Below the pieces are notes generated by a model, which did not search any database, was not told where the DNA came from, and was given only the letters and a program-made list of their open reading frames with translations. DNA of 64,000 nt from Verrucomicrobiia bacterium (GTDB lineage: Bacteria > Verrucomicrobiota > Verrucomicrobiia > Limisphaerales > Pedosphaeraceae). The stretch is from the NCBI GenBank assembly GCA_036268055.1, contig DATAUW010000018.1:1-64000 (forward strand), in the 5' to 3' direction. How positions within the stretch are numbered: the first letter of the stretch is position 1; each line of letters starts with the position of its first letter. Of this stretch, positions 26,534 to 34,304 are shown piece after piece. The translations under genes and the position numbers were made by a program.

Positions 26534-27316
26534 TCAGCGGCCACTGATTTTTCGCGCGACTCGATGAGCAGCTTTCTTGAGCATCTCGGATCGGGAGAGC
26601 ACGAAGACGCGGTTCAACTCAAAGCTCGGCGTGCCCGAGGTATTGACGCCGAATTCCGTCGTGCAGGCGGTCGCATAACCCGCCTCACGCACGAGATCGC
26701 GGACGGCAGGCGTCCATTTGCCATGCGGATAACAGAAGTGGCGGATCGGCACGCCAAAAAGATCCTCGAGTTTTTTCTTGCTGGCGAAAACTTGTTCGCG
26801 CGCATCGGCAGTGGAAAGTTTCGCCAAATTGCGATGCGTCAGACTGTGCGAACCGATTTCCTGCCCGGCCTGCAGCCATGTGCGAATTTGCGCGGCGTCC
26901 ATCAACGGCTCCGGCACGTCACCGTGGACGACGTCCCATTCATTGCGCGTGCCGATCAAATCCGCCACGATGAATTGGATGGAACGCGCACGATGGTGAA
27001 CGAGGATTTCGAGCGCATTATCCAGAACATTGCAGTAACCATCGTCGAAGGTGATGACAAATTTTTTGTCTGCGTTGGCGGACGAATGAGCAATGTCATC
27101 CAGCGAGCCGGAACTGAAACCATGCTTTGCCAGCAGTGTGAGTTGCTCGTCGAAGCGTTCGGGCGTGACATAAAGAAACGGATCGCGAGCGCCGCGCGGT
27201 GCGGTGGCGATGCTGTGATACGTGAAGACCGGCATGCCCTGCGCGAAGAGACGCCGCTGTGCGGGCGCGAGAAAAAATTGGGAGGAAAGTTGGGCGAGCA
27301 CGTCAGCTTTGGGCAC
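26534..27316 (-). CDS. Polysaccharide deacetylase (CE4/NodB family)
   Basis: 260 residues. NodB motifs are complete: TFDDGY (residues 89-94, catalytic base and metal Asp), HSLTH (157-161, metal histidines) and HFCYPHGKW (motif 3, about 193-201). These metal-dependent enzymes remove N- or O-acetyl groups from polysaccharides. No signal peptide is seen from the GTG start at 27316, so it may act on a cytoplasmic or lipid-linked intermediate; this type is common in exopolysaccharide loci. First gene of the surface-polysaccharide region, divergent from the kinase pair. Confidence 0.88.
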   Translation of the reverse strand: MPKADVLAQLSSQFFLAPAQRRLFAQGMPVFTYHSIATAPRGARDPFLYVTPERFDEQLTLLAKHGFSSGSLDDIAHSSANADKKFVITFDDGYCNVLDNALEILVHHRARSIQFIVADLIGTRNEWDVVHGDVPEPLMDAAQIRTWLQAGQEIGSHSLTHRNLAKLSTADAREQVFASKKKLEDLFGVPIRHFCYPHGKWTPAVRDLVREAGYATACTTEFGVNTSGTPSFELNRVFVLSRSEMLKKAAHRVARKISGR

Positions 27317-27488
27317 GGGTGTCGCAAACTCGCGCTCCGTGCGGCAGGGCCGGATTAGCCTTGCATTTGGTCGTGAGTTTCATTCTATTGCCGCTGTCGT
27401 TTAGGCCCGAAAAATCAGGGCCAAATGGCGAAGCACAGCGTTTCTTTTATTTCAAAATGACTGGCGATTCCAGAGAATTTTTCCGGTG

Positions 27489-28130
27489 ATGAAAAGCGAG
27501 CATCAGCCGACGGGGCTTTGCCTCGCGGTGCTGGGATCAGACGGCGCCGGAAAATCCACACTGCTCGCGCGCCTGCAGGAATTATTGCGGCCAATTTTTC
27601 CCGAGCAGCAAATCATCCATTTCCGGCCCAAGGTCTGGGAAAAGAAAACCGACGGCGTGGTCACCGACCCGCATGGCCGCCCGCCGCGCAATGTCCTGCT
27701 GAGCTGGTTGAAAGTCATTTATTATTTCCTGGACCACTGGGCGGGTTGGTGGAGCATCGTGCGCCCCGCGAAGAAGCGCGGCACGCTCGTCATCTTTGAC
27801 CGCACCTTCGATGATTTGCTGGTGGATGAAAAACGCTACCGGTTGCAGGGAACCGCGCCACTCGTACATTTTTTACGGCGCATGCTTCCGCGTCCTGCTG
27901 CGACCTTCGTGCTTTCCGCGCCGGCAAAAATTCTGCGCGCGCGAAAATCTGAAATATCTTTGGAGGAGCTTGAGCGGCAGCGGAAAGTTTTTGAACGGCT
28001 GGCAAAATCAGACCGGCATTACGTTCTCGTTTCAGCCGCGGACGCTCCCGAAAAAGTGGCGCAAACGGTCTGGCACGACGTCCTGATCTGCCTCGCGGAA
28101 CAAAAAGAGAAGGAAAATGGACCCGCATGA
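27489..28130 (+). CDS. Thymidylate-kinase-like P-loop kinase of the polysaccharide locus
   Basis: 213 residues. Walker A loop GSDGAGKST (residues 16-24) and the DR-type motif VIFDRTFDDLLVD, in the fold of thymidylate kinase. The usual TMP-binding residues are not recognisable, and tmk proper is normally beside holB or other replication genes, so this is probably a specialised kinase. It is translationally coupled (ATGA overlap, 28127-28130) to an APH-fold kinase gene. Tmk-like proteins of this type turn up in exopolysaccharide loci, which is the context here. The phosphate acceptor is unknown. Confidence 0.75.
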   Translation: MKSEHQPTGLCLAVLGSDGAGKSTLLARLQELLRPIFPEQQIIHFRPKVWEKKTDGVVTDPHGRPPRNVLLSWLKVIYYFLDHWAGWWSIVRPAKKRGTLVIFDRTFDDLLVDEKRYRLQGTAPLVHFLRRMLPRPAATFVLSAPAKILRARKSEISLEELERQRKVFERLAKSDRHYVLVSAADAPEKVAQTVWHDVLICLAEQKEKENGPA

Positions 28131-29224
28131 GCGCGCCGATTTTTCGCAGCGAATTGTTTGAGACGTCCGGCGGTGCGGATTTTATATTGGCGGTGCGCAT
28201 CATCAAAAAATCCGGTGAACCGTGGCTGATTTTACCACAGGAACGCGAATTGGCGGTGCAAGGCTTGTCGCTCTATCCGGCACAAACGGCCTTTGCGAAA
28301 AGAGCGCGTCAGATGCTGGGCATCGCATTGCGACTCGGACTGCCGATGAAATCCGAGCGCGCCGAGATGCAGCTTTCGCGTGAAGATTCGTTCGTCCGGT
28401 TTCTTCGGGGCTTGACGCCCGGCGATGAAAAATCCTTTCCATCCTTCGCGATGCTCGCGGGAAATCCAAAAGCCACAGGACGTCGGTTTATTCTACTTTT
28501 ATTTTTCCACGGCAAACCAGTCTGCGTAGTGAAAGCGGGCGTCGGACCGGAAGCGCAGGAATTAGTGCAGCGGGAGAATTTATTTTTTCGAGCCGTGCCT
28601 CCGGGTACACCGGGTTTGCCAAAAGCGCGGTCGTTATTCGCATCGTCGCGCGTGAAAGCCTTGGCGATGGATTATGTGGCGGGAGATTCACCGGCGGTGG
28701 ATGCCTGTCAGGAAATCGGTGTCCTGCTATCAGCGTGGGTGAATCGCGAGAAGCGCGTGCAGTTGGAAGAAATCCGCGCGTGGCAACGCCTATCAAAAGA
28801 ACAAAGCGGCGACCCCATTTTTCTCAAACTGAATAGCGCATTCAAAGACACGAAATTCTGCGCAACCTTATTTCACGGAGATTTCGCGCCGTGGAATATC
28901 AAAGTAGCGAATGGCACATGGACGGCATTGGACTGGGAGCGTGGCGAAGCTGTGGGTTTTCCGGGTTGGGACTGGTTTCATTACGTGGCGCAATCGGCCA
29001 TCCTTGTAGAAAAATTATCCGCGGAAGCTGTTGCGCGAAAGTTGGAAAAGTTGCTGGCCGGTGAATCATTCCAAAAATATGCCGCGACGGCTGGAATTTC
29101 TGGTCAGGAAAAAGTTCTGACCGTCGCTTACTTATTTTATTGCGCTAAGATTTTGCGTCCCACGGAAGGCGCTGAAGTAGGAGAAAAAACCCTCTCTATA
29201 TTGGTTGAGCGCTGGTTGAAATAA
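28127..29224 (+). CDS. APH-fold phosphotransferase coupled to the Tmk-like kinase
   Basis: 365 residues. The C-terminal half has aminoglycoside-phosphotransferase/choline-kinase motifs: HGDFAPWN (250-257, catalytic Asp252 and Asn257) and ALDWERGEAVGFPGWDWFHY (Mg-binding Asp269). VCVVKAG near 132-138 may supply the ATP-binding lysine. The N-terminal ~115 residues match no domain I know. Such enzymes phosphorylate small hydroxylated substrates including sugars. Its start lies inside the end of the Tmk-like gene, so the two are probably made in fixed ratio and may work together. Confidence 0.75.
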   Translation: MSAPIFRSELFETSGGADFILAVRIIKKSGEPWLILPQERELAVQGLSLYPAQTAFAKRARQMLGIALRLGLPMKSERAEMQLSREDSFVRFLRGLTPGDEKSFPSFAMLAGNPKATGRRFILLLFFHGKPVCVVKAGVGPEAQELVQRENLFFRAVPPGTPGLPKARSLFASSRVKALAMDYVAGDSPAVDACQEIGVLLSAWVNREKRVQLEEIRAWQRLSKEQSGDPIFLKLNSAFKDTKFCATLFHGDFAPWNIKVANGTWTALDWERGEAVGFPGWDWFHYVAQSAILVEKLSAEAVARKLEKLLAGESFQKYAATAGISGQEKVLTVAYLFYCAKILRPTEGAEVGEKTLSILVERWLK

Positions 29225-31399: not shown

Positions 31400-33298
31400 A
31401 TGCCAACCAAGCTAAAAGTCCTGATTTCCGCGTATGCCTGCGAACCCAACAAGGGTTCCGAACCCGAGGTGGGCTGGCAATGGGCCTTGCAGATGGCGAA
31501 GTACCATGACGTGACGGTGCTGACGCGGACGAACAACCGCGCGACCATCGAAAAGGAAGTGGCACTGCTCGAAGGCAAACAACCCCTGCCGAAATTTTTC
31601 TATCACGATGAAGCGCCGTTTTTCCTGTGGCTGAAAAAGCGTTTCAATGCCGTGCGATTCTATTATGTGTTCTGGCAAATTTCGGCGGCGCGCGTGATCG
31701 AACAGCTCAACGCGCAACACGACTTCGACGTGTTGCATCACGTGACGTTTGCCGGATTCAGGTATCGCACCGCGATTTGGAACCAGGGCGTGCCGTCGGT
31801 GTGGGGGCCGGTCGGCGGCGTGGAATCCATTCCGTGGGATTTGCTGCCGTGGAAACACCCGCAATCGCTACTGCCGGAACTCGCGCGCAATGTAAATAAT
31901 TTCATCCAGTCCGCGCCGTTCCACGTGCTGCCAAAACGCGCGCAGGAAACCACCGTGACGCTCGTCTCGACGGAGGAGATGGAACGCGCCTTTCATCATC
32001 TCGGCCTGGAAGCCTTGCTGATGCCGACGATCGGTTTGCACATCAAGCCGATGTTGCCGCGCCACGGGCGTCCGCTTACGGAGCCGTTGCGGTTTTTGTT
32101 TGTCGGCAATGTGATCACGCTGAAAGGAATTGATCTCTCGCTTCACGCGTTGAAAGAGGCGCGCATCAATGCAGTTTTTACGATTGTCGGAGACGGGCCG
32201 TTCCTCGCCACCGCCAAACGAATGGCCGCGCAACTGGGGTTGGAGAAGCAAGTCATTTTTCGTGGCCGAGTGCCGCGCTCCGAGGCGCTCAATCTCTATC
32301 CCGAGCACGATGTTTTTTTATTTCCGAGCTTGCACGATACGGGCGGTTACGCGGTCATCGAAGCAATGGCCTGCGGCCTGCCCGTCGTGTGCCTCGACTG
32401 CGGCGGTCCGCGCGTCGCGGTAAAAGATGGCGCGGGCGTGCGTGTCCCACTCATCTCGCGCAAGCAAGTGATCAGCGGCATTGCCGAAGCCATGCGAGGC
32501 TATGCGCGCGACCGCGAGATGGTGGTCCGGCATGGGTTGAAGGCCCGTGAAGTGATCGTGGAACATTACGATTGGGAAAAAAAAGGCGAACACCTCAACG
32601 AAGTTTATCTGGCGGCGGCGAAAGAAAAGGCGTCGTTTCAATCCGCCAAAAAAACAACCTTCACCGGGACGCTGAGAAATATTTTCAATCGCATGTTCCC
32701 GGTGCGGGGGCTGGCGGTCTCGGCGTTGATTCTGTTTATAGTGGGCGCGGCGGGATTTCTTAGCTTGAATTACCTGAAGCGGGACGCCTCGGCGATCGTG
32801 GAAAAAACTTTGCCGGAACTTTCCAGCGCTGGCGCCGCCAATTCGTCATTGGCGGAATCTTTCAATCGCACGTTGTTGCTGGCGATGGCGGAGACGCCGG
32901 AGGAGCGCGCGGGGTATCGCAAGGAATTGGATAATTTCAACCAGCAGACCGAGAAGTCGCTGGAGTTGTACCGGCGGAAAATTTCCACGCGCGAACAGGA
33001 AGAGTTGTACGATCGCCTGATGGCGCAAAGGAAGAAATACGTGGCATTGCGGGAGCGGGTGTTGCAACTGGTGGATGCGAAAAAATCTACCGAGGCGCTG
33101 GCGTTGTGCAAATCAACGGTGTGGCCGGCCTACCTGGATTACAAATCGGCGGCGGAAAAAATGTTAAACGCCAACACGCAGGAAGGAAGAGCGCGGGGCG
33201 ATACCATCCTGAAAATCTGCACAATCACCCAATACGCCGTGGCCGGGGCGGGCATCCTTTTGTTCGCGATCGGCTTTACGATTGGGCTGCTAAAATAA
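31400..33298 (+). CDS. GT4 glycosyltransferase fused to a membrane four-helix-bundle sensor-like module
   Basis: 632 residues. Residues 1-405 are a complete GT4 glycosyltransferase: the opening LKVLISAYACEPNKGSEPEVGWQWA, RFLFVGNVITLKGID at the start of the nucleotide-sugar domain, the E-x7-E type motif in PSLHDTGGYAVIEAMACGLP (309-328), and HYDWEKKGEHLNEVY. After a basic linker the chain has a membrane helix (about 435-457, VRGLAVSALILFIVGAAGFL), ~145 residues of charged amphipathic helices (460-605), and a second membrane helix (606-631) ending at the C-terminus. This layout matches the 4HB_MCP periplasmic sensor of chemoreceptors, without HAMP or signalling domain. I know of no such fusion. 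The frame is uninterrupted. Confidence 0.85.
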   Translation: MPTKLKVLISAYACEPNKGSEPEVGWQWALQMAKYHDVTVLTRTNNRATIEKEVALLEGKQPLPKFFYHDEAPFFLWLKKRFNAVRFYYVFWQISAARVIEQLNAQHDFDVLHHVTFAGFRYRTAIWNQGVPSVWGPVGGVESIPWDLLPWKHPQSLLPELARNVNNFIQSAPFHVLPKRAQETTVTLVSTEEMERAFHHLGLEALLMPTIGLHIKPMLPRHGRPLTEPLRFLFVGNVITLKGIDLSLHALKEARINAVFTIVGDGPFLATAKRMAAQLGLEKQVIFRGRVPRSEALNLYPEHDVFLFPSLHDTGGYAVIEAMACGLPVVCLDCGGPRVAVKDGAGVRVPLISRKQVISGIAEAMRGYARDREMVVRHGLKAREVIVEHYDWEKKGEHLNEVYLAAAKEKASFQSAKKTTFTGTLRNIFNRMFPVRGLAVSALILFIVGAAGFLSLNYLKRDASAIVEKTLPELSSAGAANSSLAESFNRTLLLAMAETPEERAGYRKELDNFNQQTEKSLELYRRKISTREQEELYDRLMAQRKKYVALRERVLQLVDAKKSTEALALCKSTVWPAYLDYKSAAEKMLNANTQEGRARGDTILKICTITQYAVAGAGILLFAIGFTIGLLK

Positions 33299-34304
33299 AC
33301 GGCGGGGAATCCGGCTGCGCGGCCGGTGAATTGCGTTCGATAAATGTGGCGATGCGCGGCCAGGCATCCTCGAAACTCACGCCCGTCAGGCAGAAGGGAG
33401 TCGAGAACCGGCAGTAATCAGAACACGGTTTGTAAGGACAAGCCTTGCCCTCGAAGAATTCAGATCTTTGATGGATCGGCATAAACCACTCCGGCACCTG
33501 CGGGCCAAACAGCGTGAAAGTCGGGAGGCCGCAAATAGCGGCAAGGTGGCCGGGACCCGAGTCGTTGCCGATAAAAAGGCCGGCTTCATCAATGACGTTG
33601 AGCAGCTTGCTGATTGAGTCGGGCGCTAAGCAGGTTTTTTCGCCGGCATTTTGCCACCACGCCAGTTGATCGGGATTGCACAGCACCCGCACCTCATTGC
33701 CCAGGGCGCGAAGCTGTTTCACGAGCCGCGAATAATGCTGGAGCGGCCAGACGCGAATGGACCGGGCGGCGCCGGTGTGGATGAGAATGGCGCGGCTGCC
33801 GGAGCGCGGCTGAAAACGGAGGTCATCGCGGCTTTCAAGATCCAAATCCAGCGCTTGCGCGATAAGCCGCCAATGATCATACCGGTGTGCGTGAAGATCC
33901 CGGATGGCCAGGGCATCAGTGAGAAAAGCCTGGCTGCCAATGCGAGGAAAACCCAGCCGCCGTTTGGCGCGGCTCATTTTAAGCAGAACGTGGTCGCGGG
34001 GATCGTCGCGGCGGGCGGACAGGGCGGTGTCGAAATGTTCGCGCCGCACATTTTTCCGGAGAGCAAACATTTCCCGCCAGGGCCAGTGAAACAGATTGTA
34101 TTTGCTGGCGTGGGCAAAGGCGGTCCAGGGAGCATTAAAAGGCAGGATTTTCACTGATGGCCAAAACCGGGGTTGCAAATCAAAAGCGAAAGGTTTTGCA
34201 AGCACAGTGACATCAAACTGCTCGCTGGCTTTGCGGATGAACGGCGTGGCGATGGCGAGATCGCCGACGCCCCACAATTCAATAATCAGTAATTTTGGCT
34301 TCAC
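33276..34304 (-). CDS. GT9 (heptosyltransferase-like) glycosyltransferase
   Basis: 342 residues. Fold and motifs of the GT9/ADP-heptose:LPS heptosyltransferase family: KLLIIELWGVGDLAIATPF at the N-terminus, ILIHTGAARSIRVWPLQHYSRLVKQL for the nucleotide-sugar domain, and FIGNDSGPGHLAAICGLPTFTLFGP (the D-S-G-P-H signature). Soluble or membrane-peripheral on the cytoplasmic side. GTG start. Its 3' end overlaps the GT4-sensor gene tail-to-tail by 23 bases. Last gene of the minus-strand cluster beginning near 39.36 kb. Confidence 0.87.
   Translation of the reverse strand: MKPKLLIIELWGVGDLAIATPFIRKASEQFDVTVLAKPFAFDLQPRFWPSVKILPFNAPWTAFAHASKYNLFHWPWREMFALRKNVRREHFDTALSARRDDPRDHVLLKMSRAKRRLGFPRIGSQAFLTDALAIRDLHAHRYDHWRLIAQALDLDLESRDDLRFQPRSGSRAILIHTGAARSIRVWPLQHYSRLVKQLRALGNEVRVLCNPDQLAWWQNAGEKTCLAPDSISKLLNVIDEAGLFIGNDSGPGHLAAICGLPTFTLFGPQVPEWFMPIHQRSEFFEGKACPYKPCSDYCRFSTPFCLTGVSFEDAWPRIATFIERNSPAAQPDSPPFILAAQS

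Follow-up and report, generated by a model that had tools for sequence, protein, structure and literature searches.

A GT4 glycosyltransferase fused to an output-less, chemoreceptor-type four-helix-bundle domain in Verrucomicrobiota

Why should a glycosyltransferase end in a domain of the kind that chemoreceptors use as a sensor, and what could such a domain do there with no output behind it? The question is raised by a gene in a 64,000-nucleotide stretch of a Verrucomicrobiia bacterium, referred to here as the window. The known controls on the synthesis of surface polysaccharides are mainly transcription, kinases and second messengers of the cytoplasm. If a glycosyltransferase had an extracellular small-molecule sensor of its own, the environment could act on the polymer directly; such a protein would also pose the biophysical question of how a chemoreceptor-type sensor signals when its usual output helix goes nowhere.

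Domain architecture and predicted structure

The gene is a single open reading frame, running from ATG to TAA without interruption, and is composed as follows:

31400..33298, plus strand: GT4-4HB fusion gene, 632 amino acids, with the same fusion in 10 further loci
31400..32614, plus strand: GT4 glycosyltransferase domain, residues 1-405 (PF00534, GT-B fold), presumably cytoplasmic
32615..32695, plus strand: basic linker of low model confidence (pLDDT), residues 406-432, variable in length among homologues
32696..32764, plus strand: first membrane helix (TM1), about residues 433-455, with G449 and G452 invariant (hydropathy, conservation)
32765..33214, plus strand: predicted periplasmic four-helix bundle (4HB_MCP_1), about residues 456-605 (PF12729, PDB profile match, structure)
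32867..33142, plus strand: conserved residues of the putative ligand pocket (alignment, ligand contacts from PMC10735184, conservation test)
33215..33295, plus strand: second membrane helix (TM2), about residues 606-630, with the family-specific end motif GFxxGLF/LK (motif count in tails and MCPs)

The first-pass annotation had read the gene as a complete GT4 domain continuing without a break into a membrane-bound tail that resembles chemoreceptor ligand domains, and this description holds. Pfam places Glycos_transf_1 (PF00534, E = 4.4e-29) at residues 228-368, and profile and GT-B fold together assign this part to GT4. It carries a D-x7-E-like motif, HDTGGYAVIEA, where E-x7-E is expected, and is a predicted enzyme with putative retaining catalysis. 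The tail matches 4HB_MCP_1 (PF12729) at residues 438-597 with an E-value of 8.8e-24 and a score of 84.5 bits, well above the curated cut-off of 27, and with an E-value of 9.5e-25 when used alone as the query. Hydropathy analysis gives two membrane segments, at about 432-458 and 606-632, on either side of the bundle, and the protein stops 2-3 residues past TM2. Pfam yields no HAMP match after the 4HB region, where there is also no space for one, and no match to MCPsignal or any other output domain after TM2, as had been noted from the sequence. Identity with a Wzz polysaccharide co-polymerase, a chain-length regulator, was considered and rejected, no Wzz profile matching at E up to 1. A scan for promoters and terminators gave sites no more numerous than in shuffled sequences.

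The AlphaFold2 model, built with homologue alignments, comprises a GT-B fold followed by helices at residues 433-470, 472-496, 500-525, 531-559 and 563-630, which make up TM1-alpha1, alpha2, alpha3 and alpha4-TM2. A four-helix bundle is thus predicted between the two membrane helices, with pLDDT values of 81-91 in the full-length and 89-96 in the tail-only model; the only correction to the layout initially proposed is a small one, namely that TM1 and alpha1 form one continuous helix, as do alpha4 and TM2. The stretch between the enzyme and TM1 has a pLDDT below 50 at about 415-433 and is probably disordered. The best Foldseek matches of the glycosyltransferase domain are MshA, BshA and PimB (MshA, 5.7e-18). 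Searched against the PDB by sequence profile, the tail is nearest to the ligand-binding domain (LBD) of the chemoreceptor MCP2201 from Comamonas testosteroni (5xub, E = 5.1e-11), whose sensor is also the nearest solved fold of the predicted bundle. The latter superposes on citrate-bound MCP2201 (5xub) with a Z-score of 18.6 and an rmsd of 1.7 Å over 141 residues (VIA-align); middling Z-scores come readily for helical bundles, but here structure and sequence concur. On malate-bound MCP2201 (7wrm) the TMt is 0.93 and the rmsd 1.5 (Foldseek). Taken together, the HMM, profile-to-PDB and fold comparisons rule out a chance lookalike of the 4HB family.

A conserved pocket within the bundle

In MCP2201, citrate and malate are held inside the monomer via R81, T104/T105/T108, R135, Y138, R142 and Y172 (PMC10735184). 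When the window protein is aligned to this receptor, R490 corresponds to R81, T517 to T108, R544/Y547/R551 to R135/Y138/R142 and Y581 to Y172; F513/N514/T517 stand at T104/T105/T108, T104 not being conserved. Every one of the 11 fusions has the equivalents of R135, Y138, R142 and Y172, and R544, Y547, R551 and Y581 are near-invariant across sequences of 30-50% identity. Among 14 family members, the seven MCP2201 contact positions (T104 excluded) are more conserved than random residue sets: none of 20000 sets was as conserved, whether drawn from the whole domain or from polar residues only. The motif RxxYxxxR is present in every fusion (11/11) and in 13 of the 14 members of alignment A1; among 20 MCP-type 4HBs of the order, only 7 carry it. 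The R81 equivalent is less constant: L053, L054, L123, L224 and L225 do not have it, and the ligand may therefore not be the same throughout the family.

Since all fusions retain the MCP2201 pocket, the tail is a probable ligand-binding domain, beyond sharing a lookalike fold. Its ligand would very probably be a small, probably anionic, periplasmic molecule, and the pocket would offer citrate- and malate-like acids and other small anions as candidate classes. These residues strengthen the original comparison of the tail with chemoreceptor ligand domains. They weaken the accompanying suggestion that finished polymer is the signal, a small internal carboxylate pocket being better suited to a small acid or anion.

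The membrane helices bear marks of their own. TM2 ends in GFxxG or GFxxC in 14 of 14 tails (GFxxC in one), and GFxxG is found in 0 of 20 MCP-type 4HBs; the membrane-helix glycines rank among the most conserved positions. The span from the end of the glycosyltransferase to mid-TM1 varies from 31 to 54 residues among homologues.

Occurrence, ancestry and genomic neighbourhood

Relatives were retrieved with the full-length alignment; a contig scan with the tail alone as query gave no match. The window gene included, 11 distinct fused genes are found in several Verrucomicrobiota families, so the domain order is shared by related genomes. Fusions occur in G007 (60% identity), G028 (53%), G269, G114 and G105, in two genomes from further families of the class, G815 and G755, and in the named records of a Verrucomicrobiales MAG (L111), a Spartobacteria MAG (L112), Pedosphaera sp. 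Lake Baikal (L115), a subdivision 3 MAG (L116) and a Prosthecobacter MAG (L123); some of the named records are the same genomes as G-labelled ones, and the figure of 11 counts distinct genes. In G127 (L052:7648-10746), two GT4 domains of different lineages stand in tandem before the 4HB tail in a protein of about 1030 amino acids. Outside Verrucomicrobiota, no 4HB was found among the 80 best loci within the flanks examined. That an assembly error or a frameshift has united two separate genes has next to no likelihood: the genes do stand apart in some relatives, but 11 distinct fused loci from independent assemblies, the Verrucomicrobiales, Spartobacteria, Pedosphaera and Prosthecobacter MAGs among them, rule it out. 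At contig ends of G259 (C33, C34 and C280; L055, L057 and L221) there are 4HB genes and the start of a glycosyltransferase with 78% identity, which suggests near-identical repeated fusion copies split by assembly; L055 and L057 were accordingly rejected as stand-alone 4HBs, being probably fused genes cut at the contig ends.

In three genomes, glycosyltransferase and 4HB are separate adjacent genes. The 4HB gene begins about 90 bases past the glycosyltransferase stop in G077 (L114), its ATG overlaps that stop codon (TAATG) in an Akkermansiaceae MAG (L120), and in G108 the GT4 that precedes it belongs to a different lineage. Because close homologues of the enzyme exist without any 4HB (G053/L118, L119 and Chthoniobacter L121), the glycosyltransferase can evidently do without the sensor. 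Free-standing 4HBs of this clade are encoded at a distance from glycosyltransferases, which argues for a role of this domain that does not need the enzyme. The genome of the window itself encodes such a free-standing paralogue of the tail (C1:156970-157617; L002, L059), a TM-4HB-TM protein in a 243-amino-acid frame without an output. By eye, dehydrogenase-complex-like genes lie on one side of it and a serine/threonine-kinase-like gene on the other, and no glycosyltransferase was seen nearby. A related free-standing group (L227, L228, L231 and L242, from G822, G626, G833 and G498) comes from another family of the class and has a short, different sequence after TM2, FxYGFFVPLTAxxERL.

In the glycosyltransferase tree, the fused enzymes form two well separated lineages, that of the window and that of Prosthecobacter with the second glycosyltransferase of G127 (100/100); the G108 enzyme with its adjacent 4HB represents a third. 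In the 4HB tree, every output-less 4HB, fused, adjacent or free, falls into one clade (100/100), which adjoins two MCPs, one from the window's own genome and the other from G040. Two fused GT4 lineages and a single 4HB clade argue that one 4HB lineage was joined to glycosyltransferases at least twice. Such repeated joining, together with the three adjacent gene pairs, is strong evidence of a functional linkage between the two, and it does not give the direction of influence. The window's contig also carries two chemoreceptors with 4HB and MCP signalling region (C18:91165-91743 and 87129-87602; L003, L032), which follow the fusion at a distance of about 55-60 kb downstream. The first of these has no HAMP match in Pfam, and few MCPs have a 4HB as closely related to the tail.

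The fusion gene lies among the following conserved neighbours:

26534..27316, minus strand: polysaccharide deacetylase (PF01522, 5.2e-24), syntenic
27486..28130, plus strand: thymidylate-kinase-like P-loop kinase (PF02223, 2.7e-7), syntenic
28127..29224, plus strand: candidate APH-like kinase (motif HGDFAPWNIK...LDWE, by eye), syntenic in many loci
33276..34304, minus strand: GT9, heptosyltransferase-like, convergent (PF01075, 2.9e-18), syntenic in 5 fused loci

The synteny of several of these genes extends to relatives both with and without the tail, and farther off there are a GT2, a Wzy-like membrane protein and acyltransferases. Its predicted gene content marks the locus as an envelope or exopolysaccharide cluster. 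The motif suggests an APH-like kinase as the product of 28127..29224; Pfam and NCBIfam returned no match naming the family of this product or of the Wzy-like neighbours. Genes resembling nucleotidyltransferases (by eye), thymidylate kinases and APH-like kinases are fused in differing combinations in L123:1481-3778, as a frame of 765 amino acids, and in L120:1866-3212, and gene fusion is therefore common in this cluster.

Possible modes of action and comparison with known systems

We favour, with a probability of about 0.5, the reading that the protein is a membrane-tethered GT4 with an output-less 4HB sensor of chemoreceptor ancestry, in which binding of a small anion alters association and hence glycosyltransferase activity. 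The enzyme, acting in the envelope or exopolysaccharide pathway, would be held at the membrane with its tail in the periplasm, where the Arg/Tyr pocket would take up a small ligand, probably a carboxylate or otherwise anionic. The ligand would then shift the association of the bundle and the glycine-rich membrane helices, either between dimer and monomer or with a membrane partner of the pathway, and the glycosyltransferase hung from TM1 would change its oligomeric state, its partners or its local concentration, and with these its activity.

In MCP2201, the signal passes from the C-terminal part of alpha4 through TM2 to HAMP, and the LBD is able to drive foreign outputs (PMC10735184). Its dimer constant is 32 μM without ligand and 0.042 μM with malate, a difference of ~1000-fold, while citrate favours monomers; these constants come from isolated domains, and the authors doubt that the oligomer changes freely in the full receptor (PMC10735184). 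Rigid helix-to-enzyme signalling in the chemoreceptor style is unlikely in the fusion, because the chain ends just past TM2 and the linker that would connect the enzyme to TM1 is of low confidence and variable in length. For the same reasons direct allostery on the glycosyltransferase, the mode of action put forward in the first-pass annotation, is doubtful. Our preferred reading is instead that the ligand governs how the protein associates, either with further copies of itself or with partners in the membrane, via the TM1 glycines and the GFxxG of TM2. A more specific proposal, which we put forward tentatively and at somewhat less than even odds, is that of a kinase-free sensor-synthase in one protein, its glycosyltransferase gated by a periplasmic ligand through the C-terminal 4HB, by oligomerisation and not through TM2-HAMP, with a new output-less 4HB clade that includes the free-standing partners.

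The same features might be read as those of a mere membrane anchor or dimerisation scaffold, taken from a chemoreceptor, which holds the enzyme near lipid-linked acceptors and senses nothing. The lack of a cytoplasmic continuation after TM2, the flexible and variable linker, the conservation of the membrane-helix glycines and the several close homologues without a tail all fit such a role; a 145-residue periplasmic bundle, however, would be superfluous for anchoring, and the near-invariance of the internal R544, Y547, R551 and Y581 would be unexpected, which makes this unlikely in our view, if still to be reckoned with. Alternatively, the 4HB could act on a polymerase, a flippase or export, and be joined to the glycosyltransferase just for co-expression or stoichiometry, leaving the enzyme itself unregulated. 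The separate 4HB gene directly after the glycosyltransferase in three loci is consistent with this, as are the fusions among other cluster genes (the 765-residue frame, the double glycosyltransferase of G127). A domain with no cytoplasmic output must also work via membrane or periplasmic contacts, and since different GT4 lineages have been joined, an interface specific to the enzyme may be absent. Yet the recurrent fusion or adjacency is specific to the GT4 gene and not to other genes of the cluster, and the Wzy-like gene is not always nearby in the stretches examined; we regard this explanation as improbable.

Glycosyltransferases with a fused sensory part are known among regulated polysaccharide synthases: BcsA carries PilZ, and NfrB a c-di-GMP-binding part. 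Both sense cytoplasmic c-di-GMP, whereas the sensory part of the fusion is predicted to be periplasmic. Wzz-type co-polymerases also have a helical periplasmic domain between two membrane helices in a polysaccharide pathway, but the fold and pocket of the tail fit the chemoreceptor 4HB. MshA, BshA, PimB and the exopolysaccharide enzymes EpsE/EpsH have the GT-B fold and the GT4 profile in common with the fusion, and we know of none with a C-terminal membrane sensor. MCP2201 (5xub, 7wrm) has the four-helix bundle between two membrane helices and shares R135/Y138/R142/Y172, but continues to HAMP and an MCP signalling domain, whereas the fusion has an enzyme before TM1 and ends after TM2; having no MCPsignal, the fusion is not a chemoreceptor, and it likewise lacks the HAMP of sensor histidine kinases. 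The 4HB_MCP sensor modules described by Ulrich and Zhulin (2005), as cited in PMC11237719, belong to the same family and also place the sensor between two membrane helices; in those modules an N-terminal sensor drives an output, whereas the 4HB of the fusion comes after a biosynthetic enzyme, at the C-terminus, and has none. Our literature search found no paper describing a 4HB_MCP-glycosyltransferase fusion, in line with the first-pass annotation, which knew of no such architecture. Both domain families are well known; new are their combination, the inverted order that puts the sensor after the enzyme, and the loss of the output.
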